Virus record (IMG/VR): IMGVR_UViG_3300021478_000794
Span: 25,391-89,390 of that record
Source: a virus
Reading direction: 5' to 3' (one strand)
DNA length: 64,000 nt
The notes beneath the pieces were generated by a model. The model had not been told where the DNA came from, did not search any database, and saw only the letters and a list, made by a program, of their open reading frames with translations. Shown piece after piece: positions 3 through 60,023 of this stretch. Each line of letters starts with the position of its first letter. The first letter of the stretch is position 1. The translations under genes and the position numbers were made by a program.

Positions 3-314
3 ATTACGGGAGTCGGAACGGCCTATCCGACGACCTGGACTCCTCCTCCGTCGATCGCCGGATCGGTTAGTAACCTCGGCGTCTGGACGAACCCGTCCTC
101 CGCTTTAAGCGATTTCCTTAACGTCCAGTACCTTTCGGTCGAGGCGGTTTGCGCGGTTACCCGGGCGAGGATTAAACCGGGCGAGCCGGTCCTCATCCTT
201 GACGAGCATATTATCTCGAAACCGGCCTTTACCCGGTTACTCCGGGAAAGCTTCGAGAAAATGATTACGCCGAAGGTCGAGACGATGCACGAAATCTCGG
301 ACTACGATAGTTAA
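3..314 (+). CDS. C-terminal part of an unknown phage protein ending in the MHEISDYD tail
   Basis: The gene enters from before the window; 103 codons of its 3' end are visible. I do not recognise the family. The visible part has an aliphatic stretch (EPVLILDEHII) followed by a probable helix, and it ends KVETMHEISDYDS-stop. That tail is a diverged copy of the peptide (V/I)ETMHEISGWDA found at the end of several other proteins of this phage, so it is the best clue that this is a real native gene. It meets the minus-strand Ig-like gene tail to tail with a 4-base overlap. Confidence 0.75.
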   Translation: MTGVGTAYPTTWTPPPSIAGSVSNLGVWTNPSSALSDFLNVQYLSVEAVCAVTRARIKPGEPVLILDEHIISKPAFTRLLRESFEKMITPKVETMHEISDYDS

Positions 315-1075
315 GCCGTTACGGTAAAGTTAACCGTCGCGCTGGCCTGACGGTCGACGCCCCGGACGTAAACCGGGACGGTCCCGACGATTAGATCGTA
401 CGCCGGTACTACCACCGTCATTAAGGTCGGATTAACGAACGTCGGCGTCTTCGTCTTTCCGGCCCATTTTACGATATCCCCGTCGACGAAATTATTCCCG
501 ACTAGATTGAGCGTTAGCGTCCCGAGCGCGGCGCTCGCGGTCGACGGCGAAAGGCTACTTAGAACCGGCGCGGGGCCTAAGGCCGCCCGGAGATCTAAAT
601 AAAGCGGATTACTCGTAATCGCCGGGCCGCCGGTATTGTCCTGGACCGTAACGAGGATAACCCGGGAGGCTCCTAAGGTCGTCGGATCGAGTCCCGCGAC
701 CGTTAAGGTATTCGGATCGGTTAAGGTCGTCGGATAAGAGATCCCGTCTAGGAGGACGACGCAGCCGCTATCGAACCGCCCGCTCCCGTCTCCTTTTACG
801 ACGAACGAGAAAGGCGCTCCGTTCGTTCGCGCTACCCGGGGAGTAACCGAAGAAAGGTAAATCGGAAAAGTCGGAGCTGGGTCGAGGGAAGGAACGAAGG
901 AAGTAAATAACCCCGAAACCTTCATCGGATTAAACAGACTCGTCGCATCCACAACATCCGTCACCCGTAAGGTACCCGGGGATTGAACCGTAACGGGAGG
1001 GAGGAGGTTAAGCTGACGGAGGAACTCTTTGACCTGATTGTCAGCCGTCGGCGAATAAGTAATCGTGTAAGGCAT
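311..1075 (-). CDS. IPT/TIG Ig-like domain virion protein
   Basis: 254 aa, probably a virion surface or tail protein. The C-terminal half has the IPT/TIG pattern (PVLSSLSPSTASAALGTL, then LVGNNFVDGDIVKWAG, then TFVNPTLMTVVVP), and a second similar Ig-like unit precedes it (residues about 80-165). I chose the ATG at 1075 (MPYTITYSPT) rather than an upstream ATG at 1150, because the latter would run into the divergent gene and has no ribosome site. A GTATTTAT octamer lies 5 bases before this ATG. Exact virion location is unknown. Confidence 0.8.
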   Translation of the reverse strand: MPYTITYSPTADNQVKEFLRQLNLLPPVTVQSPGTLRVTDVVDATSLFNPMKVSGLFTSFVPSLDPAPTFPIYLSSVTPRVARTNGAPFSFVVKGDGSGRFDSGCVVLLDGISYPTTLTDPNTLTVAGLDPTTLGASRVILVTVQDNTGGPAITSNPLYLDLRAALGPAPVLSSLSPSTASAALGTLTLNLVGNNFVDGDIVKWAGKTKTPTFVNPTLMTVVVPAYDLIVGTVPVYVRGVDRQASATVNFTVTA

Positions 1076-1080
1076 GGACG

Positions 1081-1088
1081 ATAAATAC
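1081..1088 (-). promoter_or_regulatory. GTATTTA box between divergent genes
   Basis: GTATTTAT reading toward the Ig-like gene; on the other strand it reads ATAAATAC, followed by CCGCGTTCTAGATAATTAG toward the DUF5662 gene. A very similar arrangement (TAAATACGCGTTCTATTAAT) sits between the divergent genes at 49280 and 49307. Possible promoter core; orientation uncertain. Confidence 0.35.
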
Positions 1089-1114
1089 CCGCGTTCTAGA
1101 TAATTAGAGGGACT

Positions 1115-1576
1115 ATGAGTTACGACAGTACCCCCGACACCCAAGAGCATATTTTTAAGGTCGCCTCGAACCTCGACGCTATCATATTTAATTTAAGCCA
1201 TCGCTCCCTCGTCCACGACCGATCGAAATTCGGGCCGGTCGAGAAGGAGGCCTTCGACCGGCTAACTCCCCGGCTTAAAAATTTAACATACGGGAGCGAG
1301 GAGTACCGGGCTTCCCTCCGGGAAATGAAACCGGCCCTCGCGCATCATTACGAGCATAATTCCCACCATCCCGAACATTACCCCGGCGGGGTTCTCGATA
1401 TGAGCCTCCTCGATATCCTAGAAATGTTGGCCGACTGGAAGGCGGCGGGTGAGCGGCACGACCCCCCTAACCCCCTCGATAAATCGATCGCCTACAACGC
1501 CGAACGCTTTAAACTCTCGCCTGAGATGACGAAAATCTTATCGACGACGGCGCGGGAACTGGGATGGATCGTATGA
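1115..1576 (+). CDS. DUF5662 family protein
   Basis: 153 aa. It carries the DUF5662 pattern: an N-terminal VHDRSKFGPVE motif, then HHYEHNSHHPEHY rich in histidines, then a helical MSLLDILEMLADWKAA block. The conserved His/Asp residues resemble a metal-dependent hydrolase, but the family has no established activity that I can name. The gene reads divergently from the Ig-like gene and is translationally coupled to the next small gene through a GTATGA overlap at 1573-1576. AGAGGGACT before the ATG is the likely ribosome site. Confidence 0.8.
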   Translation: MSYDSTPDTQEHIFKVASNLDAIIFNLSHRSLVHDRSKFGPVEKEAFDRLTPRLKNLTYGSEEYRASLREMKPALAHHYEHNSHHPEHYPGGVLDMSLLDILEMLADWKAAGERHDPPNPLDKSIAYNAERFKLSPEMTKILSTTARELGWIV

Positions 1577-1734
1577 CGAGGGACGAACTTTTTATCGTTA
1601 TCGCGAAGCTAAAGGAAGAGCACGGGGAGGCCTTCGATCGTTGGTACGATCAGGCCAATTTCCCGGATATCGAAGATTATTGCAAAACCGGCTTCGTCTT
1701 AGAACGCTTTTTCGAAGGAACGAGCGCCCTCTAA
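1573..1734 (+). CDS. Small acidic protein, unknown
   Basis: 53 aa (MTRDELFIVIAKLKEEHGEA...). The ATG overlaps the stop of the DUF5662 gene (ATGA), which indicates translational coupling. The sequence looks like a small helical globular protein with FDRWYDQANFPDIEDY in the middle. No family recognised. A terminator follows 9 bases after the stop. Confidence 0.75.
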   Translation: MTRDELFIVIAKLKEEHGEAFDRWYDQANFPDIEDYCKTGFVLERFFEGTSAL

Positions 1735-1743
1735 AAATGAAAA

Positions 1744-1771
1744 AAGGCCGCCCCGGTTAAGGAGCGGCCTC
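1744..1771. terminator. Bidirectional intrinsic terminator
   Basis: GGCCGC/GCGGCC stem with an AAAAAA run on the left and TCTTTCT on the right. It separates the plus-strand DUF5662 operon from the convergent proline-rich gene; on the minus strand the stem is followed by TTTTTT. Confidence 0.75.
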
Positions 1772-1789
1772 TTTCTAAAGGGTTAAATT

Positions 1790-2512
1790 TTACTCTTTAT
1801 CTTTAGGTTCCGGAACGGTCGGCTGGATCGGGTGGGCCGGTCCGATCGCTTCCGGATCGGTCGGGGGTGGGGTCGTTCCGCCGTTTCCTCCGTTCGGGGG
1901 AGGAGTCGTGGTCGGTAGTTGCGGAACGCGGGCCCACATCCACCCATAACCGGGAACGAAACACCAGACCCAACCGCTACCTTCCGGATCTTGGGCCGGG
2001 AGTTGCCCCGGTAGACCGCCCGGTTTCGGAGGTCTAACTTCGGGAATCCCGTAACCCGGATCGACCGGTCTTTCGGGATAGCCGTAACCGGGATCGACGG
2101 GACCTTGGGGAGGTCGAGAAGGCCAAGGAGGTTGCGGCATTGGAAATCCGATATCGACGTAAGGAGGTCGAGGCCGTGCCCAAGGCGGCGAGTAACCCGG
2201 GTCGACCGGCGGTCGAGCCCAAGGCGGGGAATAACCCGGATCGACCGGTCGGATAGGATACCCGTAACCGGGATCGACGGGCCTTTCCGGATACCCATAA
2301 CCGGGATCGACCGGCCCTTGGGGCGGTTTCGGTCGGATAGGTACCCCATAGCCGGGATCGACCGGTCTTTCGGGATATCCATAACCGGGATCGACCGGTC
2401 TTGAGGGAGGTTGCGGTTGAGTAGGGGGAGGACCGCCGGGCATAGGACCGCCGCCGACTTGGGTATCGGAATAAGTCAGAACGCCTTGGAAGATTACGGG
2501 GATAGCTGCCAT
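1790..2512 (-). CDS. Proline-rich PVDPGYG-repeat protein
   Basis: 240 aa. Residues about 38-165 are built of roughly nine imperfect copies of RPVDPGYGYPE, with two PVDPGYSPPWARP variants. The C-terminal part has a tryptophan-rich block (GSGWVWCFVPGYGWMW) and then a P/T/G-rich tail. Proteins with such repeats and a WV..VPG.GW block are common among phage hypothetical and structural proteins; the role is not established. The 126 bases upstream, facing the divergent gene at 2639, hold no gene. Overlapping frames in this repeat are compositional shadows. Confidence 0.8.
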   Translation of the reverse strand: MAAIPVIFQGVLTYSDTQVGGGPMPGGPPPTQPQPPSRPVDPGYGYPERPVDPGYGVPIRPKPPQGPVDPGYGYPERPVDPGYGYPIRPVDPGYSPPWARPPVDPGYSPPWARPRPPYVDIGFPMPQPPWPSRPPQGPVDPGYGYPERPVDPGYGIPEVRPPKPGGLPGQLPAQDPEGSGWVWCFVPGYGWMWARVPQLPTTTPPPNGGNGGTTPPPTDPEAIGPAHPIQPTVPEPKDKE

Positions 2513-2638
2513 AATTTAATCTTTTCGTGTAGTATGAGGTATAGGGGAGTAGGGATTATAGCGACGAGGTTTGACGCTACGATTAAACTACCGATGAAGA
2601 TAGATTAAAGGAAAAAGCTTCGTTAGTAGTTAAGGGAC

Positions 2639-3139
2639 GTGACGAACGATGTACTCGGTTTCGGAGGGGCCGTTCTCAACTTTAAAGTCGAGCGGCTCGG
2701 CCCGAGCGGCGAGCTTAAATTCTATCTAACGGCGGATCGACCCGGCTTCCGTTGGACTATCACCTACAACGGGGTCACTACCAAAAACGTAACCATGCTA
2801 GCCCTACAAAACGACCAACAAGTAACCGCCTCGATTCAACCGGTCGACGCGAAAGGAAATCCGGCGAAAGTCGACGGCGCTCCGGAATGGAGTTCCAGTA
2901 GCGAAGACGTCGCCGTCGTAAAGGCCGCTCCCGACGGACTGTCGGCGACTGTCGCCGGAGTCGATATCGGAACCTGCCAGATCAACGTTAAGGCGGACGC
3001 CGACCTCGGGGAAGGAACGACGGCGCTTACCGGTACGCTCGACGTCGAAGTAGTGGCGGGCTCGGCGGTAGCGCTCTCGATTACGACCGGTACTCCCGAA
3101 CCGAAGAAGGAAATAAATCCGCTCGGACCGAGAAAATAA
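2639..3139 (+). CDS. Ig-like (BIG2-type) virion-associated protein
   Basis: 166 aa starting at a GTG preceded by AAGGGAC. The C-terminal ~110 residues look like a bacterial Ig-like domain: QVTASIQPVDAKGNPAKVDG, then WSSSSEDVAVVKAAPDG, then a TLDVEVVAGSAVALSI ending. Such domains decorate capsids and tails and may bind host surface carbohydrate. It stands alone on the plus strand and is closed by a convergent terminator. Assignment rests on the fold pattern only. Confidence 0.75.
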   Translation: MTNDVLGFGGAVLNFKVERLGPSGELKFYLTADRPGFRWTITYNGVTTKNVTMLALQNDQQVTASIQPVDAKGNPAKVDGAPEWSSSSEDVAVVKAAPDGLSATVAGVDIGTCQINVKADADLGEGTTALTGTLDVEVVAGSAVALSITTGTPEPKKEINPLGPRK

Positions 3140-3160
3140 TTTTAACCAATAAAAAGAAGC

Positions 3161-3181
3161 GGCGGAGGTCGAACCTCCGCC
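3161..3181. terminator. Bidirectional intrinsic terminator
   Basis: Perfect GGCGGAGGT-CGA-ACCTCCGCC hairpin with AAAAAGAA on one side and GTTTTCTTTT on the other, between convergent genes. Confidence 0.85.
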
Positions 3182-3189
3182 GTTTTCTT

Positions 3190-3726
3190 TTAAATTAAGC
3201 CTCCGAACGCCTCGGGGGTAACCGGCTCCCCGTTATACGGGTTCTTCGCCCCCCATCCGAACGCGACCGCGTCGAGAAGGGTCGCCGAGTCGACCATCTC
3301 CGCTTCCATTAGAACCTTATGATCGATATTGAGAGGGATATCGCCGGTTCCGTCGTCCACGAACCAGAGGGAGTTAACCCCCCGATGCTTCATAATCTCT
3401 TGTATCGGCCAGCAATGCGCTTCCCGTAAAGCGCCGAGATTCCGGAAGACGACCCGGACCGGCTTCCCGTCCGCCGTATCTTTTAAAACTTGAATCTGGG
3501 AGTGGAGATGTTCCGGGGTAAAATTCGATCCGTCGACGAGAAGGGTATTCTTAACCCCGAGCGAATTCGTTAATTCCTCCCCGCTACCCGGACGGGCGTT
3601 TACGACGTGGAAGATACGAGCCATTCGTTCCATCGCGTCTAAACCGAGGGCCGGGAGGGCGTGAACCGAGGTAATCGCTTCGGGATCTACCTCCATGTCC
3701 GAAAGATCGACTAGTTCCTCATCCAT
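3190..3726 (-). CDS. Unknown phage protein
   Basis: 178 aa, last gene of the MoxR/VWA operon. No family recognised. The N-terminus is acidic; the middle (RVVFRNLGALREAHCWPIQE, VNSLWFVDDGTGDIPLNID) looks like an alpha/beta fold. GAGAAGAGAAT precedes the ATG. It lies 15 bases downstream of the VWA gene and may be a further part of that system. Confidence 0.75.
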   Translation of the reverse strand: MDEELVDLSDMEVDPEAITSVHALPALGLDAMERMARIFHVVNARPGSGEELTNSLGVKNTLLVDGSNFTPEHLHSQIQVLKDTADGKPVRVVFRNLGALREAHCWPIQEIMKHRGVNSLWFVDDGTGDIPLNIDHKVLMEAEMVDSATLLDAVAFGWGAKNPYNGEPVTPEAFGGLI

Positions 3727-3741
3727 ATTCTCTTCTCTTTT

Positions 3742-5009: not shown

Positions 5010-5013
5010 TTCT

Positions 5014-14379: not shown

Positions 14380-14808
14380 TTAGCTATCCCATCCCGAGAT
14401 TTCGTGCATCTCCGCGATCTCGATTTCGTACCGGACCGCTCCGGCGAGCGAGTCGCCTTCGGAAACGGTAAAAAGCCGGTATCCGGCCCCGGTCGCATAC
14501 GTATTTATTACCCGGACGACTTCCTCTAACGAGGGAGCGCTCTTCTCCCAAAAGCGCTCGCTAAAAATCCGGTTCCAATTTAGTAAGAAATTAAGCGCCT
14601 CCGACCCGTTAATAACGGCCTTTAAACCGCTCGACGAATTCCAGAGGATCCGTTTTTCTAAAACTTTAAATTCGCCGTTCGCGATCTCTCCCGAAACGAT
14701 CGCGAGATCGGTATTACTTAAGACGATATTTAACGCCGGGTTGAGCGGTCGCCGGTAGACGACCGATTCGGTTTTTAGAAGCTTTAAAACCGTCTCGGAA
14801 TTAGGCAC
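14380..14808 (-). CDS. Unknown protein with C-terminal MHEISGWD tail
   Basis: 142 aa from the GTG at 14808, placed just after the stop of the RuvC-like gene; longer frames would overlap that gene throughout. No domain recognised. It ends YEIEIAEMHEISGWDS-stop, one of the clearest copies of the tail shared with six other genes of this phage. The final ~35 residues resemble the end of the 59655-60023 product (YEISIEIMHEFSGWDA). Lies inside the replication operon between helicase and nuclease. Confidence 0.75.
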   Translation of the reverse strand: MPNSETVLKLLKTESVVYRRPLNPALNIVLSNTDLAIVSGEIANGEFKVLEKRILWNSSSGLKAVINGSEALNFLLNWNRIFSERFWEKSAPSLEEVVRVINTYATGAGYRLFTVSEGDSLAGAVRYEIEIAEMHEISGWDS

Positions 14809-23242: not shown

Positions 23243-23770
23243 TTACGATTCGGAGAGGCGACGGTTTAATTTCCGAACGAGCGCCGCTTCGTCCCATCCG
23301 CTCATCGTATGCATCGTTTCGACTTCCGGGACCTCCACCCAAAACTCCCCCAGTTGAGCGTTTTCCGGATCGTCCTTATTTTCCTCGTAATCGTTCATAA
23401 CCGCCCAGGTCATATCCTCGATGAACCAGGCGGCAATTAACGAGCCGATATCGGCGAGCTGCTTAATACTATCCGCGCCGGGAAAACTCGCGACGAGATG
23501 GAGGACGTTCGGCTCCTGGCGCGGGATCTTTTTCGTCGAAAAACTCCCGGCGTTCGGGTCGGGAAGCGAGATCGTCTCCCGGGCGAACTCGTCCGCCGCC
23601 GCCCAAAGCTCCTTCCCGAAGCGCTGGTAGAGGCGGTAGAGTTCCTTATTATTCTTAATTCCGGGAATCTTGCACGCCAGGACGTTCCCGTTATTTTTCT
23701 TAATAAATTCGAACGTTTTTAAATTGAACCGGTACGCCCGGGCGATTTTTAGAGCGAGATCGACGTCCAT
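23243..23770 (-). CDS. Unknown protein with internal MHTMSGWDEA motif
   Basis: 175 aa, mostly helical. Residues ~149-161 read VETMHTMSGWDEA, the phage's shared motif, here followed by 15 more residues (ALVRKLNRRLSES) instead of the stop. That short basic tail resembles the start of a second domain, as in the double-domain protein at 34246. The rest includes ADEFARETISLPDP and SLIAAWFIEDMTWAVMND. No family recognised. Confidence 0.75.
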   Translation of the reverse strand: MDVDLALKIARAYRFNLKTFEFIKKNNGNVLACKIPGIKNNKELYRLYQRFGKELWAAADEFARETISLPDPNAGSFSTKKIPRQEPNVLHLVASFPGADSIKQLADIGSLIAAWFIEDMTWAVMNDYEENKDDPENAQLGEFWVEVPEVETMHTMSGWDEAALVRKLNRRLSES

Positions 23771-32606: not shown

Positions 32607-34034
32607 CTACGGACCGAAACTGAAGTTGGTAGGATAGTTCTGGATGTTGCCCTTCGCGTAGTAGCGCGAGTTAACCGGCTTCTTCCCGAACTGGCTCGCC
32701 CACGCGGCCCGGTTCGTAAAATCGTCCAGCATTATCGTCGGAGTACGGTAGAGTAGAAGCCAGGGGGCAAAAATATAACCGGTTCTCATCCAGTTATCCC
32801 CTTTATACCCGAGGAGGTATTCGGTCGGGTCGGCGTGCGGGTCGGCGTAGACCTTGTATTTCCCGAGGAGGGTCCCGATAAAGGTAATACCGTCGACCTC
32901 ATTTTTATGAGGAGCCGGATCGAACTGCGGATGGGTCGCGAGGAGGGCCATTCCCTGCACCCCGACTACCAACCAGTTCGCCATGACCCGGTCGGTCGCC
33001 CGGAAGATAAAGGCATCGAGTTCGATAATCGCGTCGACGAAGGAGAGCTTATGCTCGGTCCAGGAGACCCCGCTCGGTAGCGTCGAATCCCAGGAGTTAA
33101 CCCCGGCCCCGGCCATATTATGGAGCTGGGTGAGGATATGTCGATCGATCTCAAACTGAATCTCAGAAGCGACCGCCGCCGACATCTGGGCCTCGACCTT
33201 CAGGCCGTGAAGGGACTTGAGGACCTGTTCGGCTTCTTGCGACCAGCGGGCGCGTAACGCGTACCGTTGGGCGGTAATAACCGAGGAACTGAGGGTAAAG
33301 TTGACCTGCGGGAGGTTGGTCGAACCTTCCGAATTCCAGGAGTAGGAGACCGTAACGACGTTCCCGGTATTCCCGGTAAGGGTTAGGCTAATCGCCCCGG
33401 TAACGTAATTAATCGTCCCGGCGGAAAGACCTCCGACGGCGGGGAAATTTCCGTTCGAATCGTCGACGTAGGTATCGCTCCCGTTCGTTAGAATAACGGT
33501 ACCGGGACGGATCGGGGTAAAGGCGATCGTCGCGTTGGTCGTACCGGTTCCGGCGGCGGTAAGCTGCTCGGAAGTAATCTGCTCCGAAGCGAAATCGCGG
33601 TTTGGGCCGTGACCTCCTCGGGAATCCCAGAGTTTATCCCCCTTCGTTACGTCGCCCTTAGTCGTTCCGGCGATGTAGTCGAGGAAAAAGACGTTGCCGC
33701 TGGGGCCTTCGAGGGGCTGTACGGTTACGAGTTCCGGCGTAATAAGATTCTCCGCCACCATCGAGATAACCGGGAAACCGAACTTTTCCCAAGCGCCGAC
33801 GTTGATCGTCTGGGAATCTTCGTTAATCGCGTCCTTCGCGAAAACGCGGGCATTTTCGAGCATTGCGGCGACGAAGATCTTTTTCTCGTCGCCCGGGATC
33901 GCGGCGACGATCTCCTTCCAGCCTCTAGCTTCGAGGATCGATTGGCCCTTCTTGAGGCCCCACGGGGTCTCAATCAGCTTTTCGAGCCTCTCCTGTTTCT
34001 CGCGGATAGCGCGAGATGAGATGTAATTTTGCAT
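32607..34034 (-). CDS. Major capsid protein (T4 gp23-like)
   Basis: 475 aa. The T4-type signature FPVISMVAENLITPELVTVQ followed by PLEGPSGNVFFLDY is clear, as is ALRARWSQEAEQVLKSLHGL then KVEAQMSAAVASEIQFEIDR, equivalent to the ALKA..T.E..QDL.A.HGL..E.EL block of gp23. An inserted beta-rich region (~165-245, VILTNGSDTYVDDSNGNFPA) probably lies on the capsid surface. Residues 33-36 (ILE-A) fit the gp21-type (I/L)xE cleavage rule, so the N-terminal ~35 residues may be removed during maturation. Own terminator downstream; codons include more TG/CA than elsewhere. Confidence 0.95.
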   Translation of the reverse strand: MQNYISSRAIREKQERLEKLIETPWGLKKGQSILEARGWKEIVAAIPGDEKKIFVAAMLENARVFAKDAINEDSQTINVGAWEKFGFPVISMVAENLITPELVTVQPLEGPSGNVFFLDYIAGTTKGDVTKGDKLWDSRGGHGPNRDFASEQITSEQLTAAGTGTTNATIAFTPIRPGTVILTNGSDTYVDDSNGNFPAVGGLSAGTINYVTGAISLTLTGNTGNVVTVSYSWNSEGSTNLPQVNFTLSSSVITAQRYALRARWSQEAEQVLKSLHGLKVEAQMSAAVASEIQFEIDRHILTQLHNMAGAGVNSWDSTLPSGVSWTEHKLSFVDAIIELDAFIFRATDRVMANWLVVGVQGMALLATHPQFDPAPHKNEVDGITFIGTLLGKYKVYADPHADPTEYLLGYKGDNWMRTGYIFAPWLLLYRTPTIMLDDFTNRAAWASQFGKKPVNSRYYAKGNIQNYPTNFSFGP

Positions 34035-34245: not shown

Positions 34246-35595
34246 ATGGAAGAAGATTTCTTTCGATCCCTAGAGGCGGAGGACCTTCGTCTCCTAAACG
34301 GTTACGACGAAGCCCGGCGGGGTACGCCCCGGGCGACCCTTTCCGACGACATAAACGAACTCGTTAAAGATTACGACTCCGCTAAGGCGATTAAGGGCCA
34401 GCTAGACGCCTTAAATTATTTCGGCTCGGTTATCGCCCGGTACGGTTCGATCGAAGCTTGGAAGAATTTCGATTTCGAAAAACGCGATAAAAGCGTCTTC
34501 GGACAGGATTGGTTCGAACAGGGGTTTAAGGAGATCAGCCTCTATTTCGTTATCGAATCGTCCCGGGGGAAGATTAAAAGCTTAGAGTTTTCGGATAAAA
34601 TTCTCCGGATCCGTATCATGGTTTACGGGAAATCGGGCGTAAGTAAGGCGGAAAATCTTCCCTCCTATTATTGGCACGAGAAGAAGAGCTATTTTCCCGC
34701 GAAAGCGATCCCGGTAAGTTGGCCGGGGCCGAGCTTACTCGCCGCTTCGCTCGACCCCGAAGTCCGGAAGCGAGCCTCGGAACTCGTCGGCGAAGCGTAC
34801 GGGAAATTTTTAAGCGGCCTCCTTCCGCCCGCTCCGGATATCGAAACGATGCATACGATAAGCGGCTGGGACGAGGCGAGGACCGCGCTCCCCCGGACGA
34901 CCGTCGATACGACCCCGATCCTTAAAGACCCGGAAGAAACGAAAAAAGTTGAAGACCGGTTAAAGGCCGCGAATTACTTCGATAGCGCTTTTACCCGTTC
35001 CTCCGAAATCACCGTTCAGAAATATTTTAAGCCCGGCGCGACGGAAAAAGATTTCCGGTCCGCTCGCCTTTATATGCGGATCGGACTCCGGCGCGGACGT
35101 TCCGGTTATCGTCCGGCTCTCCATATCGAAACCGACATTAGCGGAACCTACGCTCCCGGAGAGGATGTAACCTATCGACCGGTCCTTAAAAAGGATTACC
35201 CGGCGTCGGAAATCCCGGCGGTTTGGCCGGGGTACGCCTTAACTAGCCCTTCTCTCGTTCCCGAAGTTAGGAAGAAGGTTAGCGTTCTCTTCGCCGAGGC
35301 TTATAAGGTTTTCCTAAAAGCGCTCTCTCCGCCGCCTCCGGATATCGAAACTATGCATACTATTAGTAACTGGGACGAAGCTATAATCGGGAAATTCGAA
35401 GCGCCGGACGCCGATTCGAAGCCGTTTTCGATGTGGTCGAATACCGATAAATATGTCCCGGTCGGGAGCGAGGAAGACCGGGAGCTTCTTTACGGGATCG
35501 AAGAATCGGAAGAATCGGAAGCGACGGTCGGAGCTTTTCTCGCGGTCGGGAAGTTAATGGAAAGTATAAAAAGTAAAACCCCGCCCGAAATGTAG
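34246..35595 (+). CDS. Duplicated-domain protein with two MHTISxWDEA motifs
   Basis: 449 aa from the ATG at 34246 (a GTG at 34213 is also in frame). Two ~170-residue copies of one domain are visible: compare AYGKFLSGLLPPAPDIETMH with AYKVFLKALSPPPPDIETMH, and AIPVSWPGPSLLAASLDPEV with EIPAVWPGYALTSPSLVPEV. Each copy ends with ETMHTIS(G/N)WDEA (residues ~198-209 and ~366-377), and the N-terminus has a diverged third copy (DLRLLNGYDEARRG). So the motif acts as a domain border. No family recognised. Divergent from the capsid gene across a 211-base gap. Confidence 0.8.
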   Translation: MEEDFFRSLEAEDLRLLNGYDEARRGTPRATLSDDINELVKDYDSAKAIKGQLDALNYFGSVIARYGSIEAWKNFDFEKRDKSVFGQDWFEQGFKEISLYFVIESSRGKIKSLEFSDKILRIRIMVYGKSGVSKAENLPSYYWHEKKSYFPAKAIPVSWPGPSLLAASLDPEVRKRASELVGEAYGKFLSGLLPPAPDIETMHTISGWDEARTALPRTTVDTTPILKDPEETKKVEDRLKAANYFDSAFTRSSEITVQKYFKPGATEKDFRSARLYMRIGLRRGRSGYRPALHIETDISGTYAPGEDVTYRPVLKKDYPASEIPAVWPGYALTSPSLVPEVRKKVSVLFAEAYKVFLKALSPPPPDIETMHTISNWDEAIIGKFEAPDADSKPFSMWSNTDKYVPVGSEEDRELLYGIEESEESEATVGAFLAVGKLMESIKSKTPPEM

Positions 35596-36071: not shown

Positions 36072-37478
36072 TTAAAGCTGGCTGAACGGGTTCGTCCGGT
36101 GCCGAGTCATAATCCGGAGGAGATCGTGCTCCTCGGCCTTCGACTCTTTTAGCTTCTTCGATTCGCTCGCCGATCCGGAAGGCCCGATGACCTTACAGTC
36201 GCCGGGGCCGAGCGAAGATTTTCCGCTTCCCTTCGTCCCGTCCTTTACCTTCTGGTCCTCGCCGCCGACCTTCGTCGCCGTCTCCCCGGTCCCGTCTTCT
36301 AGATCTTCGTCGGTATCCGCCGCTTTCTTTCCGTCGCCCGGTCCGGCCATATCGCAGTCGCCCGGCCCGATCGCCGCCGTTCCCGATTTCCCGCCCTTCG
36401 TCCCGTCGGTCCCGGTTAGATCCTCTCTAATCCGCGACTCGTCTTCTTTCTCTTTCTTCGGCTTATTATCCGCCGTCGCTCCGGCTTTCGGTTTTTCTCC
36501 GGCCTTCTCCTTCTTCTTCGCGAGGATCTTCTTCATGAACTCCGGATCCCCTTCCGCGATCTTACTCGCGTCCTTAACGCCGTGTTCCCGACAGAGCGCG
36601 ACGAGCGCGGTCGAAATCTCTTTCTCCTCGCTAAGGGCGGTCTGAAGCGTCCCGATCTCGGTCTTCGCCCGGGCGAGAAGGGCCTTATTCCGTTCGATCC
36701 GCGCCTCCCACTCTTTCGACCCTTCGACCGTCGCGAGCTTCCGCCGGGCTTCTTCGAGTTCTTTAAGAAGGGGATGATGCACTCTAATCCGTTCCTTTAG
36801 CTCGTCGGCGAAATTCCGCCAGCGTTCCCCGTAAACCGCGCTCTCCCGGAGCCGGGCGATAACCTGGACCGCCGCTTTAAGTTCTTTCGATTCGAACGAA
36901 GTTTCCTTCCCGAAATCCTCTTCTCCGCCGCCTTCGTCGCCGTTCCCGCCGATCGGCGCTTCCGCGAAATCGTCTTCGCCGCCTTCCCCGCCTTCTTCCC
37001 CGCCCGATTTAGCGCTAGAGATTAGGCCGTGAACGTCGACTTCGCCTTTATCTAAAAATTCCTGATAAGCACCGGAAAGATCGGCGGTCTCTTCGGTTCC
37101 CGGGCTCATCCCCTTTAGGACCGCCTTTAGGACCTCGTCGAAAGCGCCCTGATCGACGGAGGAGCCTTCCATTCCCTCCTCGCCGCCGTTCTCTTCCCCT
37201 TCGACGCCCGGCGGAAGATCCGAGCCGCCTTCGGTCGGTTCGTCGACCTTATCCTCGAAACCGGCGCTAAAATCGTCCATCTCCTTTAGGAGCTTATTCC
37301 CGTAGGCCGATACGGCGCGATCTTCGGCGATATAGTTAGTGATCGTCGTCCTCATGTCGTCGAGTTCTTCGGTGAGGCCGACTTTCTCTTGAAAGCCGAG
37401 TTTTCGAACGTTGGTGGAGGTGATCCGCTTAAGAGCGACACCTACCTTACGCATTTCACCAATTAAATTTTTGGACAT
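36072..37478 (-). CDS. Internal in-frame start: stand-alone scaffold
   Basis: The ATG at 37478 (MSKNLIGEMRKVGVALKRIT) lies exactly at the protease/scaffold border and would give 468 aa of scaffold without protease. GTATTTAG lies 24 bases upstream, as before other structural genes, and codons around the start (AAA AAT TTA ATT GGT GAA) are AT-rich and unlike the rest of the gene, as expected for a translation start. No good Shine-Dalgarno is visible. Compare lambda C/Nu3, where scaffold starts inside the protease gene. Confidence 0.5.
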   Translation of the reverse strand: MSKNLIGEMRKVGVALKRITSTNVRKLGFQEKVGLTEELDDMRTTITNYIAEDRAVSAYGNKLLKEMDDFSAGFEDKVDEPTEGGSDLPPGVEGEENGGEEGMEGSSVDQGAFDEVLKAVLKGMSPGTEETADLSGAYQEFLDKGEVDVHGLISSAKSGGEEGGEGGEDDFAEAPIGGNGDEGGGEEDFGKETSFESKELKAAVQVIARLRESAVYGERWRNFADELKERIRVHHPLLKELEEARRKLATVEGSKEWEARIERNKALLARAKTEIGTLQTALSEEKEISTALVALCREHGVKDASKIAEGDPEFMKKILAKKKEKAGEKPKAGATADNKPKKEKEDESRIREDLTGTDGTKGGKSGTAAIGPGDCDMAGPGDGKKAADTDEDLEDGTGETATKVGGEDQKVKDGTKGSGKSSLGPGDCKVIGPSGSASESKKLKESKAEEHDLLRIMTRHRTNPFSQL

Positions 37479-38132
37479 AGGACTGGTTTGGGAAGTTGGA
37501 ACTAAATACTCTCGACTCTCGGCAGTTTCACTCGATTCTCTTTTCGCCGCTTTCGACGACCGGTTTTCTCCCGCGACCGGTTTAACCCGCGCTCCCGGGA
37601 CGGAGTTATCGGCGACGAAGTCCCAGGTAATAAGGGTAAACGACTCGGGGATAACCCGCTGGACCCCTTCGTTCATCGCCTCCTCGACTTCCCCTTCGCC
37701 CCGGGAAGAGATCCCGACCGGTACTCCGGCCTCTAGTAAAGCCCCGGCCTTCCGTCCGTCGGGGGTATTAAGAACCGTCGCCTCGCCCCAAATTTCCCCG
37801 TTCCCTTTATCCCAGGCCTTCGTAACGATATGCGAAATCGGGCCGGTTAACCGGGTTATCCCGTCTTCCGGATGCTCTAGCATCCCGACGACGCTATTTT
37901 CCCGGATCCGGTTCGTCCAGCTCTCCTCGTTTAGGACCCGATCGAAGAGCGCCTTCGGATAAATCCGGTTATTGGCGTTTTTCTCGTCGTACTTCTGAAA
38001 TAAGCCGCGCACCTTCATGAGCGGCTTAACGACGTCCGAGTTACCTTGGATTTCGATATCCTCCGTTAAATCGTCTTTAACGATTTCGAAACGGAAAGGG
38101 ATCGGAGCGGATTCTAGAATTTGACGTCCCAT
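36072..38132 (-). CDS. Prohead protease fused to capsid scaffold (gp21-gp22-like)
   Basis: 686 aa. Residues ~1-190 are a T4 gp21-type prohead serine protease: VRGLFQKYDEKNANNRIYPK, VVGMLEHPEDG (catalytic His87) and GISSRGEG (Ser142/143). From ~220 on the protein is a charged, helical and acidic scaffold (KELKAAVQVIARLRESAVYG, LLKELEEARRKLATVEGSKE), ending in a low-complexity tail with two GPGDC units. Fusion of the two T4 functions implies cis assembly then self-digestion. An internal ATG at 37478 probably gives scaffold alone. GTATTTAG precedes the gene. Confidence 0.9.
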   Translation of the reverse strand: MGRQILESAPIPFRFEIVKDDLTEDIEIQGNSDVVKPLMKVRGLFQKYDEKNANNRIYPKALFDRVLNEESWTNRIRENSVVGMLEHPEDGITRLTGPISHIVTKAWDKGNGEIWGEATVLNTPDGRKAGALLEAGVPVGISSRGEGEVEEAMNEGVQRVIPESFTLITWDFVADNSVPGARVKPVAGENRSSKAAKRESSETAESREYLVPTSQTSPMSKNLIGEMRKVGVALKRITSTNVRKLGFQEKVGLTEELDDMRTTITNYIAEDRAVSAYGNKLLKEMDDFSAGFEDKVDEPTEGGSDLPPGVEGEENGGEEGMEGSSVDQGAFDEVLKAVLKGMSPGTEETADLSGAYQEFLDKGEVDVHGLISSAKSGGEEGGEGGEDDFAEAPIGGNGDEGGGEEDFGKETSFESKELKAAVQVIARLRESAVYGERWRNFADELKERIRVHHPLLKELEEARRKLATVEGSKEWEARIERNKALLARAKTEIGTLQTALSEEKEISTALVALCREHGVKDASKIAEGDPEFMKKILAKKKEKAGEKPKAGATADNKPKKEKEDESRIREDLTGTDGTKGGKSGTAAIGPGDCDMAGPGDGKKAADTDEDLEDGTGETATKVGGEDQKVKDGTKGSGKSSLGPGDCKVIGPSGSASESKKLKESKAEEHDLLRIMTRHRTNPFSQL
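37502..37509 (-). promoter_or_regulatory. GTATTTAG box inside the protease-scaffold gene
   Basis: 24 bases upstream of the internal scaffold ATG; encodes part of REYLVP in the long product. Supports a separate scaffold transcript. Confidence 0.35.
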
Positions 38133-53645: not shown

Positions 53646-53657
53646 ACCGTTTCCCTT

Positions 53658-54319: not shown

Positions 54320-54325
54320 AATGGG

Positions 54326-54478: not shown

Positions 54479-54499
54479 AAAGCGGGGAAAAGGAGTAAA

Positions 54500-54572
54500 T
54501 TGCGGGGGGAGGATTTGAACCTCCGATCTCCTGGTTATGAGCCAGACGACTTAACCACTGGTCCACCCCGCG
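54500..54572 (-). tRNA. Initiator-type tRNA-fMet (anticodon CAU)
   Basis: 73 nt cloverleaf: acceptor CGCGGGG with CCCCGCA, D stem GACC, anticodon stem TCTGG/CCAGG with loop CTCATAA, T arm GGAGG-TTCAAAT-CCTCC. Initiator hallmarks: unpaired C1/A72, A11:U24 in the D stem, discriminator A73, and acceptor ends nearly identical to bacterial tRNA-fMet (CGCGGGGTGGA, CCCCGCAA). Only two of the usual three G:C pairs precede the loop (T29:A41 replaces one). CCA is not encoded and must be added. It probably feeds phage translation initiation. Confidence 0.9.
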
Positions 54573-54590
54573 ATTCGAAAACTTATCGAA

Positions 54591-54803: not shown

Positions 54804-54813
54804 AAAAGGTCTT

Positions 54814-55071: not shown

Positions 55072-55096
55072 TCTTCCCCTTTAGAACGACGAGAAG

Positions 55097-55321: not shown

Positions 55322-55327
55322 TAATTT

Positions 55328-55915: not shown

Positions 55916-55930
55916 ACGGGTTACATTTCG
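55916..55930 (-). promoter_or_regulatory. CGAAATG leader box
   Basis: Gene-sense CGAAATGTAACCCGT-ATGA. The inner ATG is followed by TAA. Confidence 0.55.
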
Positions 55931-55949
55931 CCTCCCTAGAAAAGAAAAA

Positions 55950-55969
55950 CCCCGCCGGTTAGGGCGGGG
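55950..55969 (-). terminator. Intrinsic terminator
   Basis: CCCCGCC / GGCGGGG hairpin followed on the minus strand by TTTTT, downstream of the YRVGNN-repeat gene. Confidence 0.8.
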
Positions 55970-55995
55970 TCTTCCGGGGAGGAGATTTTAGTTAG

Positions 55996-56241
55996 TTAGT
56001 TATTATCGTCGTCGTAGTAGGTGTTGTTGCCGACCCGGTAGCTAGAGCCGGAGTGATAGTTCCCGTTACGATCGGTACCGCTCCAATAATAGTTGTTACC
56101 GACGCGGTAACCGCTATAGGATTCGCCGTTCGATCCGGTATAGTAGTCGTTATTACCGACGCGATAGCTCGACCAGCTTCCAGCGAAGGCCGGGCTAATT
56201 AAACTAAGCGCGAGGAGAGTTAAGGATAATTTCTTTAGCAT
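55996..56241 (-). CDS. Secreted YRVGNN-repeat protein
   Basis: 81 aa. Signal peptide MLKKLSLTLLALSLISPAFA, then a 61-residue mature chain with three YRVGNN(D/Y/T)YY repeats separated by Ser/Gly/Asn (SSYRVGNNDYY, SGYRVGNNYYW, SSYRVGNNTYY). Small exported aromatic repeat protein, perhaps binding surface or periplasmic polymer. Own CGAAATG-type leader and own terminator, so a single-gene unit. Confidence 0.8.
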   Translation of the reverse strand: MLKKLSLTLLALSLISPAFAGSWSSYRVGNNDYYTGSNGESYSGYRVGNNYYWSGTDRNGNYHSGSSYRVGNNTYYDDDNN

Positions 56242-56262
56242 AGTAGAGAACTACATTTCGTA
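56242..56262 (-). promoter_or_regulatory. CGAAATG leader box (long spacing)
   Basis: Gene-sense ACGAAATGTAGTTCTCTACT-ATG; inner ATG followed by TAG; spacing 15 instead of 11. The CTACGAAATGTAG core is partly palindromic. Confidence 0.45.
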
Positions 56263-56302
56263 GTCTTACCCGAGAAAGAACGGGAAGCCCGCCCGGAAAA
56301 GA

Positions 56303-56330
56303 AAAACCCCGCCTTCGAGGACGGGGTTTT
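56303..56330 (-). terminator. Intrinsic terminator
   Basis: AAAACCCCG / CGGGGTTTT stem with an inner CC/GG; T-run on the minus strand after the 56352 gene. Confidence 0.75.
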
Positions 56331-56351
56331 CAAAATTACCTTTCTTTCTCC

Positions 56352-57017
56352 TTATTCCGCTTCGTCGGCGGCGGCCTTTATCTTTTCCGCGACGAGCTTT
56401 AGCGCTTCCGCCGTCTTATCGGCGGCGAGGGTCGGCTTAACCGCCGTCGTCGTAAGGATCGGGAGAAGCTCGCCGATCTCCTTCTCGCCCTTCTTAAAGA
56501 GGGTAACGAGAGACTCGTCGTTTACGATCGAGCTTTTCTTCGCTTCCTGCTTCTGCATGAAGTCCGCCGGAATACCCTCGACCGCGCCGAGGATCTCCCC
56601 GATCTTCGTCATTAGCTCGGTATCGGCGAGATACGCCGGGTTAATAATGAAGGTCTCGGGCTTATCCGTAATCTCGTCGACCGGGATCCCGGCCTCTTCG
56701 AGGATCTGGATTTCCTGCTCGTTTAGGACGGAGCGGGAAGAGCGCTTCCGGAGTTCGCAGGACGCCGAGGCGTCCGAGTCGATTCCGCGAAAGTTCGCCG
56801 GTTGCGCGCCGAGAGCGACGCCTTTTTCGACGAAGTAGGCGCGGATCTGAGAGTCGATATTCTCCCGGGCCGAAACCTTAAGCGCTTCGATCGTCTTATA
56901 CGCCGCGTCGAGCGCCGCGTAAACTTCGAGCCCGTTAATCGCGACTTCGACTTTTTCCGCTTTTTTCGTCGATTTCTTCGCGGGAGCTACCGTAGCCGTT
57001 GCAAATATGTTTTTCAT
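56352..57017 (-). CDS. Unknown phage protein (DASASCELRKRS type)
   Basis: 221 aa. A Lys/Ala-rich N-terminus precedes a long helical region (YAALDAAYKTIEALKVSARE), then GIDSDASASCELRKRSSRSV then LNEQEIQILEEAGIPVDEI, a pattern that I have the impression occurs in other phage hypotheticals. No activity assigned. Own consensus leader and terminator mark it as a strongly expressed single-gene unit, probably an early or host-takeover product (inference). Confidence 0.75.
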   Translation of the reverse strand: MKNIFATATVAPAKKSTKKAEKVEVAINGLEVYAALDAAYKTIEALKVSARENIDSQIRAYFVEKGVALGAQPANFRGIDSDASASCELRKRSSRSVLNEQEIQILEEAGIPVDEITDKPETFIINPAYLADTELMTKIGEILGAVEGIPADFMQKQEAKKSSIVNDESLVTLFKKGEKEIGELLPILTTTAVKPTLAADKTAEALKLVAEKIKAAADEAE

Positions 57018-57036
57018 ACCGTATACATTTCGTGAG
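57018..57036 (-). promoter_or_regulatory. CGAAATG leader box (consensus copy)
   Basis: Identical over 19 bases to that before the DUF932 gene (10529-10547). Inner ORF ATG TAT ACG GTA TGA. Confidence 0.65.
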
Positions 57037-57048
57037 CTTTTTCGGCTT

Positions 57049-57450
57049 TTACGCGTCCCAAGCCGAGACCTCGTGCATATTGGAGACGTCGATTTGCGGG
57101 ACCAGGGCGACGAGCGAGCCCGCCTCCGTTAAAGCGGCGGCGATCGCCCGGGCCTTCTTCGGCGCTACCTTCTCTAGAACGGTTCCGTCCTTCGATTCCG
57201 CTAAACGTTTCGCGTCGGCGAGGCCGAAGCCCGGGATTAGGCTCCGGAGCGTCTTAACGACCGGGATAAGGGAACCGGGCGTTAAACCCCGGATCTTAAT
57301 ATCGACGACCGGCCCTTCCGCCGCCCGGATCTCCCGGAGGAGATCGAGAAACTTCTCGACTTCTCCGGCGTCGGTAACCGTAAGGGCCCGGGCGAAGAAG
57401 CTCGCTTCGAGCTTCTCTAATTCTTCGACCGTTAAACCGTTAAAATTCAT
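57049..57450 (-). CDS. Ribosomal L7/L12 C-terminal-domain-like protein with MHEVSAWD tail
   Basis: 133 aa. Residues ~47-115 match the bL12 CTD: VDIKIRGL, SLIPVVKTLRSL, GFGLADAKRLAES and KKARAIAAALTEAGSLVALV align with FDVILKAA, VAVIKAVR, GLGLKEAKDLVES and DAEALKKALEEAGAEVEV of bacterial L7/L12. The L12 CTD recruits translation factors, so a phage copy could compete for them or supplement the stalk. The dimerising N-domain and flexible hinge are replaced by a short helical region. The chain ends DVSNMHEVSAWDA, the shared tail. Starts directly after the membrane gene. Confidence 0.8.
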   Translation of the reverse strand: MNFNGLTVEELEKLEASFFARALTVTDAGEVEKFLDLLREIRAAEGPVVDIKIRGLTPGSLIPVVKTLRSLIPGFGLADAKRLAESKDGTVLEKVAPKKARAIAAALTEAGSLVALVPQIDVSNMHEVSAWDA

Positions 57451-57858
57451 TTAAAAGGGCCGTCCATTTTCGTCTATCCGTTCCAGCATACGCTCGGCTT
57501 TCGACTTCGTTTTCCAGTCGAAATTCGAGAACGTCGTCGAAGCGGGTTTAGGGGCGTCTTTTTTGTAGTAGCCCGTCGTATCGTAGGGATCCGACGTATC
57601 GTCCGGATGCGCGGTCGCGTAAGCGGCCCGTTGCTCTACCGTATAACCGTACGTCGCGCAGTTCTGGATCGTACCGCTTACGACTATGAACGCCGCGAAG
57701 GCGCATAGAGCAATTATCCCGAATACAATCCAACCCCCGATAAGCCGACCGACGGGGTGGAGGAAAAAGGCCCCGATATACAGAAGCGGGGGCATTATTA
57801 TGTAGCGCATTATCGGAACCGCGAAGACCGTCATTAGAAGAGGTATTAGAAGTATCAT
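57451..57858 (-). CDS. Membrane protein, unknown
   Basis: 135 aa. Two or three membrane segments in the N-terminal ~65 residues (MILLIPLLMTVFAVPIMRYI, then IVFGIIALCAFAAFIVVSG), followed by a soluble, Asp/Tyr/Lys-rich C-terminal part. Last base adjoins the L12-like gene. CGAAATG leader upstream. Function unknown. Confidence 0.75.
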   Translation of the reverse strand: MILLIPLLMTVFAVPIMRYIIMPPLLYIGAFFLHPVGRLIGGWIVFGIIALCAFAAFIVVSGTIQNCATYGYTVEQRAAYATAHPDDTSDPYDTTGYYKKDAPKPASTTFSNFDWKTKSKAERMLERIDENGRPF

Positions 57859-57877
57859 ATCCCCTACATTTCGTGAG
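57859..57877 (-). promoter_or_regulatory. CGAAATG leader box
   Basis: Gene-sense CTCACGAAATGTAGGGGAT-ATGA; inner ATG followed by TAG. Confidence 0.6.
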
Positions 57878-57890
57878 GGTACTTTAAGCC

Positions 57891-58130
57891 GTGCCGAAGG
57901 GATTTAAGCTCCGGAGCCGGATCGTGAAGGTCCGCTCCCTTAAGGATTACGAGGAAACGCCGGACGGCGACGAGATGCTGGTTTTCCGGGAAGAAGGAGA
58001 ACCCGCCGACGTCGAAGAGACGATCGCGGACGATTTCCGGCTACTCAACCAGCGTTTCCCGGGCCCGTTCTATCGCCTCAGTATAACACCGCTTAAAGAA
58101 CCCGGCGATATCCGGCGCTTCCTCCGCTAA
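57891..58130 (+). CDS. Unknown small protein
   Basis: 79 aa from a GTG at 57891 (GTG CCG AAG GGA). Basic N-terminus (PKGFKLRSRIVKVRSLKDYE) then an acidic middle and a C-terminal RRFLR. Plus-strand single gene whose last 90 bases overlap the convergent 58041 gene, so support is moderate. Confidence 0.55.
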   Translation: MPKGFKLRSRIVKVRSLKDYEETPDGDEMLVFREEGEPADVEETIADDFRLLNQRFPGPFYRLSITPLKEPGDIRRFLR

Positions 58131-58328
58131 CCGGTCGAGGGTCCCGAGATCGAGCCCCCAGAGGCGCGACGAGACTTCGAGAATAAAGGTTTCGTCGCTC
58201 TTCGCCGCGAGCGCTTTCTTAACGAAGCCGTGAACGTGGGCCGGGCTATACCCGGGAGGAACCGGGAGCTTCTCCGCGACCGCCGAGGCGGTTACCCGGA
58301 GTTCCGCGATTACCTCCCCGAGCGTCAC
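58041..58328 (-). CDS. Unknown small protein
   Basis: 95 aa from the GTG at 58328 that overlaps the stop of the upstream gene (GTGA). Helical (GEVIAELRVTASAVAEKLPV, LDRLAEEAPDIAGFFKRCYT); contains a His-rich loop (SPAHVHGF). No family recognised. Confidence 0.65.
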   Translation of the reverse strand: MTLGEVIAELRVTASAVAEKLPVPPGYSPAHVHGFVKKALAAKSDETFILEVSSRLWGLDLGTLDRLAEEAPDIAGFFKRCYTEAIERARETLVE

Positions 58329-58507
58329 CGCTCCTCGTCGTCCTTCCGGCGAAAACAGTTTTTCGTTAACCTTTCCGCCCAATCGTACGCGGCCCGATAA
58401 CTAGGGAAAGGGGATTCGAGGAGTTTCTCGCCGATCTGAATAAAGAAAAAATGGGACTTTTCGAGAATCGAGATCGAGGGATGATTTAAACGCAACATTA
58501 CTATCAT
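58325..58507 (-). CDS. Unknown small protein
   Basis: 60 aa from the ATG at 58507, preceded by GGAGGTTGT. HPSISILEKSHFFFIQIGEK, then SYRAAYDWAERLTKNCF. The beta strand followed by a helix suggests a small alpha/beta fold. CGAAATGG leader upstream. No family recognised. Confidence 0.65.
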   Translation of the reverse strand: MIVMLRLNHPSISILEKSHFFFIQIGEKLLESPFPSYRAAYDWAERLTKNCFRRKDDEER

Positions 58508-58523
58508 ACAACCTCCATTTCGC
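58508..58523 (-). promoter_or_regulatory. CGAAATG leader box
   Basis: Gene-sense GCGAAATGGAGGTTGT-ATGA. Inner ORF ATG GAG GTT GTA TGA ends on the gene's ATGA; GGAGG supplies the ribosome site. Confidence 0.55.
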
Positions 58524-58560
58524 AAAATCCAGCCCGGCTTCTTCCGAGGTACCTACGTTC

Positions 58561-58573
58561 TTAAAGAGAAAAC
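58561..58573 (+). promoter_or_regulatory. Shared 13-mer TTAAAGAGAAAAC
   Basis: Ends 6 bases before the GH75-like ATG; identical to 24432-24444 before the secreted beta-helix gene. AAAGAG can also serve as ribosome site here. Confidence 0.3.
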
Positions 58574-58579
58574 GACCTC

Positions 58580-59329
58580 ATGAGCGAAACCCAATATTCC
58601 GAGATCGCCTCCGTCGGAGGAGTAAAAATCTACTCAATCTCCACTTTAGTCTCCTCGACCTCGGATTCTTTCCCGGAGGTTATCCTCTATAAATCGGAGA
58701 TGACGATCGACGGCGACGGCGGCCCCCATACTTATAACCCGGAGGATACCGGGCTCGATTTTTTAGCGAACGGCGGCTATCCGGACGACGGCTGCTATGG
58801 GATGGTTACCGATCCGGAAGATTCGGAAGATCCCGCCGATTGCATCCTCCAGGAGATGTACCATCCCGCCCCCGGTTACTTCGTAAGCGCGACCAGCTTA
58901 ACGAACGAGATCTTCCCGCCCTCTAGCCCGGACCATTACGTTAACTCGGAGGAGATCCCCTTTATCGCCGTTCCCGGCGGGCACGACGACCCGGACGTCC
59001 CGGGCTGGGACGCATTCGGGGTTTCGCTCGGGGACGTCGCCTTCGTCTGGAATACGGCGACGGACGATAACTGCTTCGCGCTCGTCGCCGACGTCGGCCC
59101 GAGTTCGCACGCCGGAGAAGGCTCGATTAAACTCGCGACCGCCCTCGGGCTAGAGGGAAGCCCGAAGTACGGCGGGACGGAGAACCCGGAGATCGTCTAC
59201 CTCCTCTTCCCCGGCGCGATCGGAAAGTGGACCCCGCCGGACCATTGGTTCCCGCTCGCGAACGAACTCCTAAAAGCCTGGGGCGGGTTCGACCGACTAA
59301 AGGCGCTCGTCGCGGAAATCTACGGCTAG
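58580..59329 (+). CDS. GH75 chitosanase-like glycoside hydrolase
   Basis: 249 aa. Matches the glycoside hydrolase family 75-like pattern: MTIDGDGGPHTYNPEDTGLD, APGYFVSATSL, VNSEEIPFIAVPG, VSLGDVAFVWN and FALVADVGPSSHAGEGSIKL, where D171 and E180 correspond to the family's catalytic pair. GH75 cleaves beta-1,4-linked glucosamine polymers; in a phage it may attack capsule, biofilm or cell wall. No signal peptide or membrane segment. It follows the shared 13-mer TTAAAGAGAAAAC, as the secreted beta-helix gene does. Confidence 0.8.
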   Translation: MSETQYSEIASVGGVKIYSISTLVSSTSDSFPEVILYKSEMTIDGDGGPHTYNPEDTGLDFLANGGYPDDGCYGMVTDPEDSEDPADCILQEMYHPAPGYFVSATSLTNEIFPPSSPDHYVNSEEIPFIAVPGGHDDPDVPGWDAFGVSLGDVAFVWNTATDDNCFALVADVGPSSHAGEGSIKLATALGLEGSPKYGGTENPEIVYLLFPGAIGKWTPPDHWFPLANELLKAWGGFDRLKALVAEIYG

Positions 59330-59658
59330 GCGTCCCAGCCGGAGACTTCGTGCATCGTCTCGATCGCGGGGACCGGCGGACCTAACCCCCAGCCGACCTT
59401 CCCTTTCCCGCCCCGTTTCCCGGGTACCCGTCCGTAGAAGAGGCGGCGTCCTTCGCGGTCGAAGATCGCGTAGCCGTCTTTAAACTCCTGGAGATGAAGC
59501 TGAGAACGAGGGGTTCCCGAATTCTTCGTAATATGGCGGAAGAGAAATTCGCATTTTTGTAAGACGGTTTTCTTCCCTTTTAGGAGATAGGTTTTCCCTT
59601 TCTCCTCCGAAGACCAGTAGTAGATCGTAACCCGACCTCGTTTTTTCGTCGTTATCAT
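59326..59658 (-). CDS. Small protein with C-terminal MHEVSGWDA tail
   Basis: 110 aa from the ATG at 59658, which is formed by the ATGA overlap with the upstream gene's final GCA TGA. Basic and beta-rich (RGRVTIYYWSSEEKGKTYLL, YAIFDREGRRLFYGRVPGKR). It ends VPAIETMHEVSGWDA-stop, the best match to the tail consensus. The two tandem genes 59655 and 59326 both carry the tail although their bodies are not alike. Confidence 0.8.
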   Translation of the reverse strand: MITTKKRGRVTIYYWSSEEKGKTYLLKGKKTVLQKCEFLFRHITKNSGTPRSQLHLQEFKDGYAIFDREGRRLFYGRVPGKRGGKGKVGWGLGPPVPAIETMHEVSGWDA

Positions 59659-60023
59659 GCGTCCCACCCGCTAAATTCGTGCATTATTTCGATCGAGATT
59701 TCGTAAATCGTAAAAATGGCCGTGATATGTTGCGTCTTCGCTTTAAAATCGACGTAGGTATCGACGACCCGTTTAAACCGGAGACCGAAGACGTCCGGTA
59801 AGACGTCGCTCGCGACCGGAGGAAGAGTATCGAGGAGAAGGCGATCGCCGCTATAAAGATAAAGCCGCCGCTCGCTACCGAGCCGCTTAATTTCACAGCG
59901 GTTCGGCCAGCTCGGGATATTCGTCAGCGCAAGCGAGACCCCGAAGGAACTATTTTTATTCGTCCCGACGATCTGGATCTCGATCGCGTTCTCCGGCATT
60001 AACCCGGGTAATTTTATATTCAT
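59655..60023 (-). CDS. Small protein with C-terminal MHEFSGWDA tail
   Basis: 122 aa. Beta-rich body (ENAIEIQIVGTNKNSSFGVS, RRLYLYSGDRLLLDTLPPVA, TAIFTIYEISIEIMHEFSGW). Ends EIMHEFSGWDA-stop. Preceded by a consensus CGAAATG leader. Function unknown; the last 20 residues resemble those of the 14380 product. Confidence 0.8.
   Translation of the reverse strand: MNIKLPGLMPENAIEIQIVGTNKNSSFGVSLALTNIPSWPNRCEIKRLGSERRLYLYSGDRLLLDTLPPVASDVLPDVFGLRFKRVVDTYVDFKAKTQHITAIFTIYEISIEIMHEFSGWDA

Follow-up and report, generated by a model that had tools for sequence, protein, structure and literature searches.

A peptide tag on unrelated proteins of an uncultured tailed phage and on one protein of a second, unrelated phage

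This study describes a peptide of 12 residues, of the form [VI]ETMH[ET]xSx[WY]D, that is attached as a tag to otherwise unrelated proteins of an uncultured tailed phage represented by a virus record of 89,390 bp (IMGVR_UViG_3300021478_000794, here G000), from which a stretch of 64,000 nucleotides (G000:25391-89390, here the window) was analysed. Nine copies occur across eight G000 genes, with eight copies in the window and one outside, and one more copy is carried by an unrelated phage, G001; among the databases searched, the tag is confined to these two phages. It is independent of the fold of its carriers and stands mostly at a free C-terminus, and the carriers are real genes with no detectable common ancestry. 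The peptide is very probably a functional linear motif, and it looks like a molecular address label used by several phages of one host.

A six-frame scan of the window with the pattern M-[HNQ]-x-x-[ST]-x-[WYF]-D returned exactly the eight copies listed in a first-pass annotation, each where it had been placed, and the remark made there that five are followed directly by a stop codon is borne out. These five are VETMHEISDYDS (276..311, +, stop at 312-314), at the end of a gene for 142 amino acids of which the window holds the 3' part (1..314, +), the start lying to the left at G000:25276; IAEMHEISGWDS (14383..14418, -), in a gene for 142 amino acids that has no family match and adjoins a helicase gene (14380..14808, -); VSNMHEVSAWDA (57052..57087, -), past the fold of an L12-like protein; IETMHEVSGWDA (59329..59364, -), in a gene for a basic protein of 110 amino acids with an isoelectric point of 10.1 (59326..59658, -); and IEIMHEFSGWDA (59658..59693, -), in a gene for 122 amino acids without a family match (59655..60023, -), which overlaps the preceding one. 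The other three are internal: VETMHTMSGWDEA (23285..23323, -) lies about 13 residues ahead of the C-terminus of a protein of 175 amino acids without a family match (23243..23770, -), and IETMHTISGWDEA (34840..34878, +) and IETMHTISNWDEA (35344..35382, +) follow the first and second copies of a duplicated orphan domain in a protein of 449 amino acids (34246..35595, +), in which the tags stand in proline-rich linkers. A search of the rest of G000, which had been proposed as a check, yielded one further carrier (G000:11977-12213, -), with the tag GLDIETMHEVSGWDA at G000:12006 (-), directly before the stop. When this copy and that of G001 are counted, the stop follows directly in seven of the ten copies. 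The C-terminal copies have the form MHE[IVF]S[GADN][WY]D[AS]-stop and the internal copies the form MHT[IM]S[GN]WDEA, so that MHE stands in 7/7 C-terminal and MHT in 3/3 internal copies, a split seen in ten copies only, two of them duplicates; one copy has I-A-E.

The recurrence is well separated from chance. A profile of 14 columns gives the tags 40-48 bits, against 9.9 bits for the next-best peptide in the G000 and G001 proteomes and a maximum of 5-17 bits in 20 shuffled proteomes, and a hidden Markov model (HMM) of the tag matches G000 nine times (E 1e-7 to 3e-10) and G001 once, while 23 other viral records give no match at E<=10. A chance origin is ruled out by the profile scores and the HMM search. 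Four IMG/VR scans with different forms of the tag returned only two contigs, a fragment of G000 (99.9% identical) and G001; taken with the HMM result on the 23 viral records, they dispose of the possibility, raised in the first-pass annotation, of chance-level occurrence in other phages. No hit to the strict pattern came from 84,980 species, each represented by one genome, a tblastn search of GenBank phages and plasmids with a 20-residue tag query gave no match (a query this short having limited sensitivity), phmmer found no match in the PDB and a literature search found no such phage tag. Every carrier's own frame scores above its five other frames by codon use (0.27 to 0.56 bits per codon).

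Selection acts on the peptide, since the copies vary in their codons and lack a conserved RNA fold, as the first-pass annotation had proposed in attributing the conservation to the peptide and not to the DNA. Where tag residues are identical the codon matches in 142 of 274 pairs, against 118 predicted from codon usage, and RNA folding is conserved at none of the three copies tested (z of -1.5, -1.3 and +1.1). An element acting at the DNA or RNA level is ruled out by the codon differences and the inconsistent folding.

The carrier bodies, compared without the tag, show no homology by hhalign (pairwise probability at most 5%) or blastp, except for the internal duplication in 34246-35595; a common fold or a single homologous family of carriers is ruled out by these comparisons. 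The earlier description of the proteins as unrelated therefore holds for their bodies and is to be qualified in that the carriers at 14380 and 59655 are weakly similar, solely with the tag included. The two copies reported in 34246-35595 are present, with the correction that both are part of one internally duplicated domain of about 150 amino acids. In this protein long sequence follows the tags, the second domain and then a 68-residue tail, a decayed third tag copy, EAEDLRLLNGYDEA, lies at the N-terminus (34273..34314, +), and the two domain copies are identical at 15/17 positions in the tag segment and at 52/145 in the bodies. Searches of the carriers against Pfam, PHROG and PADLOC or defence families gave nothing beyond chance level except for the L12-like protein (57049..57450, -; 133 amino acids), the domain of which had already been recognized in the first-pass annotation and is a ribosomal L7/L12 C-terminal domain (Pfam PF00542, E 2.7e-10) at residues 61-116. 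Its tag occupies residues 122-133, outside the domain, and in a weak single-sequence model has the lowest confidence, with a predicted local distance difference test (pLDDT) value of about 36-39 and almost no secondary structure; the structure models are of low confidence overall (mean pLDDT 57 and 49). L7/L12 C-terminal domains (bL12) are encoded by other phages too (PMC6375957), and one carrier body of the eight resembles these, the tag being beyond the domain. No convincing upstream promoter motif is common to the carriers, one 8-mer being found in three genes. These results support the first-pass view that unrelated proteins carry a tag acting as a peptide, which may serve docking, localisation, proteolysis or co-assembly.

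The second phage, G001 (39,858 bp), comes from the same metagenome as G000 and is a myovirus with its own terminase, portal, sheath, tape measure, baseplate and integrase by PHROG match; because it has an integrase, it is probably temperate, and in our reading one of its proteins is a protease-capsid fusion. G000 and G001 have no DNA in common, and their proteins are alike only in tail collar/fibre domains, with short stretches at about 29-52% and a best match of 39% over 293 residues. The single G001 tag, PKIETMHEVSNWDA, forms the C-terminus of a protein (...TVPKIETMHEVSNWDA-stop) whose gene is located between a small excisionase-like open reading frame (ORF) and the integrase gene and whose body has no homology to any G000 carrier. 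The G001 virus is present in at least two samples, since a record from a second metagenome (L031, IMGVR_UViG_3300021478_000124) encodes the G001 terminase with 100% identity. The gene at L017:15403-16275 of G001, which adjoins the tagged gene and the integrase gene, matches beta-glucosyl-HMC-alpha-glucosyltransferase (phrog_842, E 3e-28) and may serve DNA or surface modification.

Between G000 and G001, synonymous codon usage is correlated at r=0.983, close to the value of 0.990 between the two halves of G000, whereas GC-matched phages of other hosts (PB1, phiW-14 and Syn5) give r of 0.61-0.78. On this good evidence, near-identical codon usage, the two phages very probably share a host, and the same codon usage is a possible lead to it.

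As the tag is used by two unrelated phages, its presumed receptor would most likely be a protein of the host that they have in common and not of either virion. The tag may be a short linear motif for docking, added to unrelated accessory proteins or set in their linkers, a reading that we hold tentatively. One receptor would bind it and thereby recruit or localise the carriers, and this receptor could be a host hub protein in transcription, replication or translation, or at the membrane. The free carboxylate with which the C-terminal copies end (WDA/WDS-stop) may have its counterpart in the extra Glu of the internal ones (WDEA). Docking on a receptor of the host is plausible, if short of probable, and we favour it over a receptor in the prohead core because the head type of G001 is different, its tag is on a lysogeny-module protein and the head proteins of G000 are untagged. 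A common recruitment code, in which unrelated phages of one host independently tag accessory proteins for docking on one host hub, is conceivable but doubtful. Several points weigh against a host-side receptor. G001 has a single copy, possibly acquired from a G000-like phage, and the head-gene lineage of G000 has terminal peptides resembling head-targeting signals, so that a phage-encoded receptor is an alternative. The search for a host genome gave none; the terminase of G001 has no relative among genome contigs, and the GenBank phages closest to it are only about 34% identical and have varied hosts. The strict tag pattern is absent from the 84,980 species genomes, which thus supply neither a tagged host protein nor a receptor.

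The phage-encoded alternative is drawn from the head module of G000, which comprises a T4-type major head protein (phrog_138; 32607..34034, -) and a T4-type head maturation protease fused to an acidic core-like region (phrog_207, E 1.4e-30; 36072..38132, -), both untagged. The tagged gene 34246-35595 sits between these two genes, on the opposite strand to both. In the major head protein, [ILM]xE sites, MLE among them, are clustered in the first 72 residues. The nearest relatives of G000 by head genes are only 25-30% identical, and a search for relatives of its DNA polymerase found none. Among these relatives, G004, G003 and G012 have a portal, protease and major head protein homologous to those of G000. 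In G004 (loci L019-L027) and G003 (loci L028-L030), the N-termini M..WRKFLxE or MKITKSQLRKIIKEE occur on eight/six and seven/five otherwise different proteins; M..WRKFLxE matches the N-terminus of T4 IPII/IPIII at positions 4, 7, 8 and 10, of which positions 4 and 7 govern targeting and 8 and 10 processing in T4 (PMC9026906). In G012, a C-terminal VERWQRLAGLIK is common to three cargo-like proteins and an acidic scaffold-like protein (L137:18143-19879, L138:2928-4124, L138:4140-5201 and L138:5237-6253). The scaffold-like protein, encoded between the protease and the major head protein, has the RWARLAGI form (DRWARLAGINK), while the cargo-like proteins with RWQRLAGL are encoded downstream of the major head protein and have, in addition, N-terminal peptides of the G004/G003 kind; one RWQRLAGL carrier has a polynucleotide-kinase-like match. 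Single proteins in G009, G025 and G020 end in RWxRLAG[IL]. G000 and G001 have no match to RWx[RK]LAG[ILMV], and no N-terminal peptide set is common to proteins of G000. This head-gene lineage thus habitually places shared terminal peptides on orphan proteins, which makes head targeting a serious rival explanation of the G000 tag.

The tag would then be a C-terminal counterpart of the T4 capsid-targeting sequences, by which the prohead core would take up the carriers for packaging and injection; this is possible, though we consider it rather unlikely. G000 has the T4-type protease and major head protein, the gene of one carrier is located in the head module, and the relatives G004, G003 and G012 bear their common terminal peptides on orphan proteins. 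Moreover, head proteases of this family cleave on the C-terminal side of Glu (PMC5694885), so that the MHE/MHT split fits cutting of the C-terminal copies only: the protease may cut these after MHE, and the internal MHT copies would escape. However, the tag is on none of the G000 head proteins and is not N-terminal, the His and the residues past the supposed cut are conserved as well as the cut site, and in G001, with its protease apparently fused to a capsid protein, the tag is on a lysogeny-module protein. If the receptor were instead another G000 protein outside the head core, the G001 protein would be a prophage mimic or decoy against incoming phage, or a recent acquisition; the eight tagged genes of G000 against one in G001, the apparently common host and the probably temperate nature of G001 are in keeping with this, but the body of the G001 carrier has no homology to the G000 carriers and nothing links the protein to immunity, and we regard it as improbable.

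Two further explanations bear on the position and origin of the tag. A C-terminal degradation signal, by which the lifetime of regulatory proteins is kept short, would suit the seven of ten copies that stand at the extreme C-terminus and end in a small residue, but three copies are internal, two of them with long sequence after the tag (the second domain and the 68-residue tail), and conservation spans 12 residues, so that such a signal is quite improbable. Least likely of all is a recombination relic, the 3' end of a gene copied onto several genes and now without function: the slight excess of shared codons given above and the use of CAT-AC[GT] by all internal copies (n=3) are in its favour, whereas the closer identity of the tag than of the bodies in the duplicated domain and the failure of blastn to find DNA repeats within G000 speak against it.

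Of known systems, the T4 capsid-targeting sequences (the propeptides of IPI/II/III and Alt) are alike in that a short peptide marks accessory proteins that otherwise differ, in a phage encoding a head protease of the T4 type, and in a Glu that is a possible cut site. They are propeptides at the N-terminus, which the head protease removes (PMC9026906), whereas the tag is C-terminal (seven copies) or internal (three), is unrelated in sequence and is also found in a phage whose head is of another type. At the place of the [IL]-x-E cut site of T4-type sequences, the C-terminal copies have M-H-E and the internal ones M-H-T. The RWxRLAG[IL] peptide of G012, G009, G025 and G020 resembles the tag in its C-terminal position, its presence on four G012 proteins and the homology of the head genes to those of G000, but its sequence is unrelated and it is carried by the scaffold-like protein of G012, whereas the head proteins of G000 are without the tag. 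The C-terminal tip of bacterial SSB (single-stranded DNA-binding protein) and the motifs that bind the sliding clamp likewise link unrelated proteins to one hub through a terminal peptide of up to about ten residues; the former is an acidic tail ending in Phe and the latter has a QxxLF-type core. All ten tag copies lack both an acidic run ending in Phe and such a core, and their sequence is unrelated. An ssrA-like degron stands at the extreme C-terminus, a position taken by seven of the ten copies and not by three.

G000 also encodes a DNA polymerase, helicases, a DnaB-like helicase and a clamp-loader-like ATPase. The window contains a single tRNA-Met (CAT) gene (54499-54573, -), and Shine-Dalgarno-like sequences are scarce ahead of the genes of both G000 and G001, AGGAG preceding six of the 78 longer ORFs in G000. 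The gene at 58580-59329 (+), which adjoins two tagged genes, matches glycoside hydrolase family 75 (chitosanase), though below threshold (E 7e-4).

In conclusion, the tag marks phage proteins that have no recognisable homology, and so provides both a means of finding such genes and a bait for their partner. Should the tag be a packaging signal for the head core, it would be a C-terminal one unlike that of T4, and RWQRLAGL in the relatives would suggest a wider phenomenon. If the receptor is a host protein, as we tentatively favour, it would be a point of convergence for unrelated phages of that host, and if a common recruitment code exists, the peptide would define a host-specific set of host-takeover proteins.

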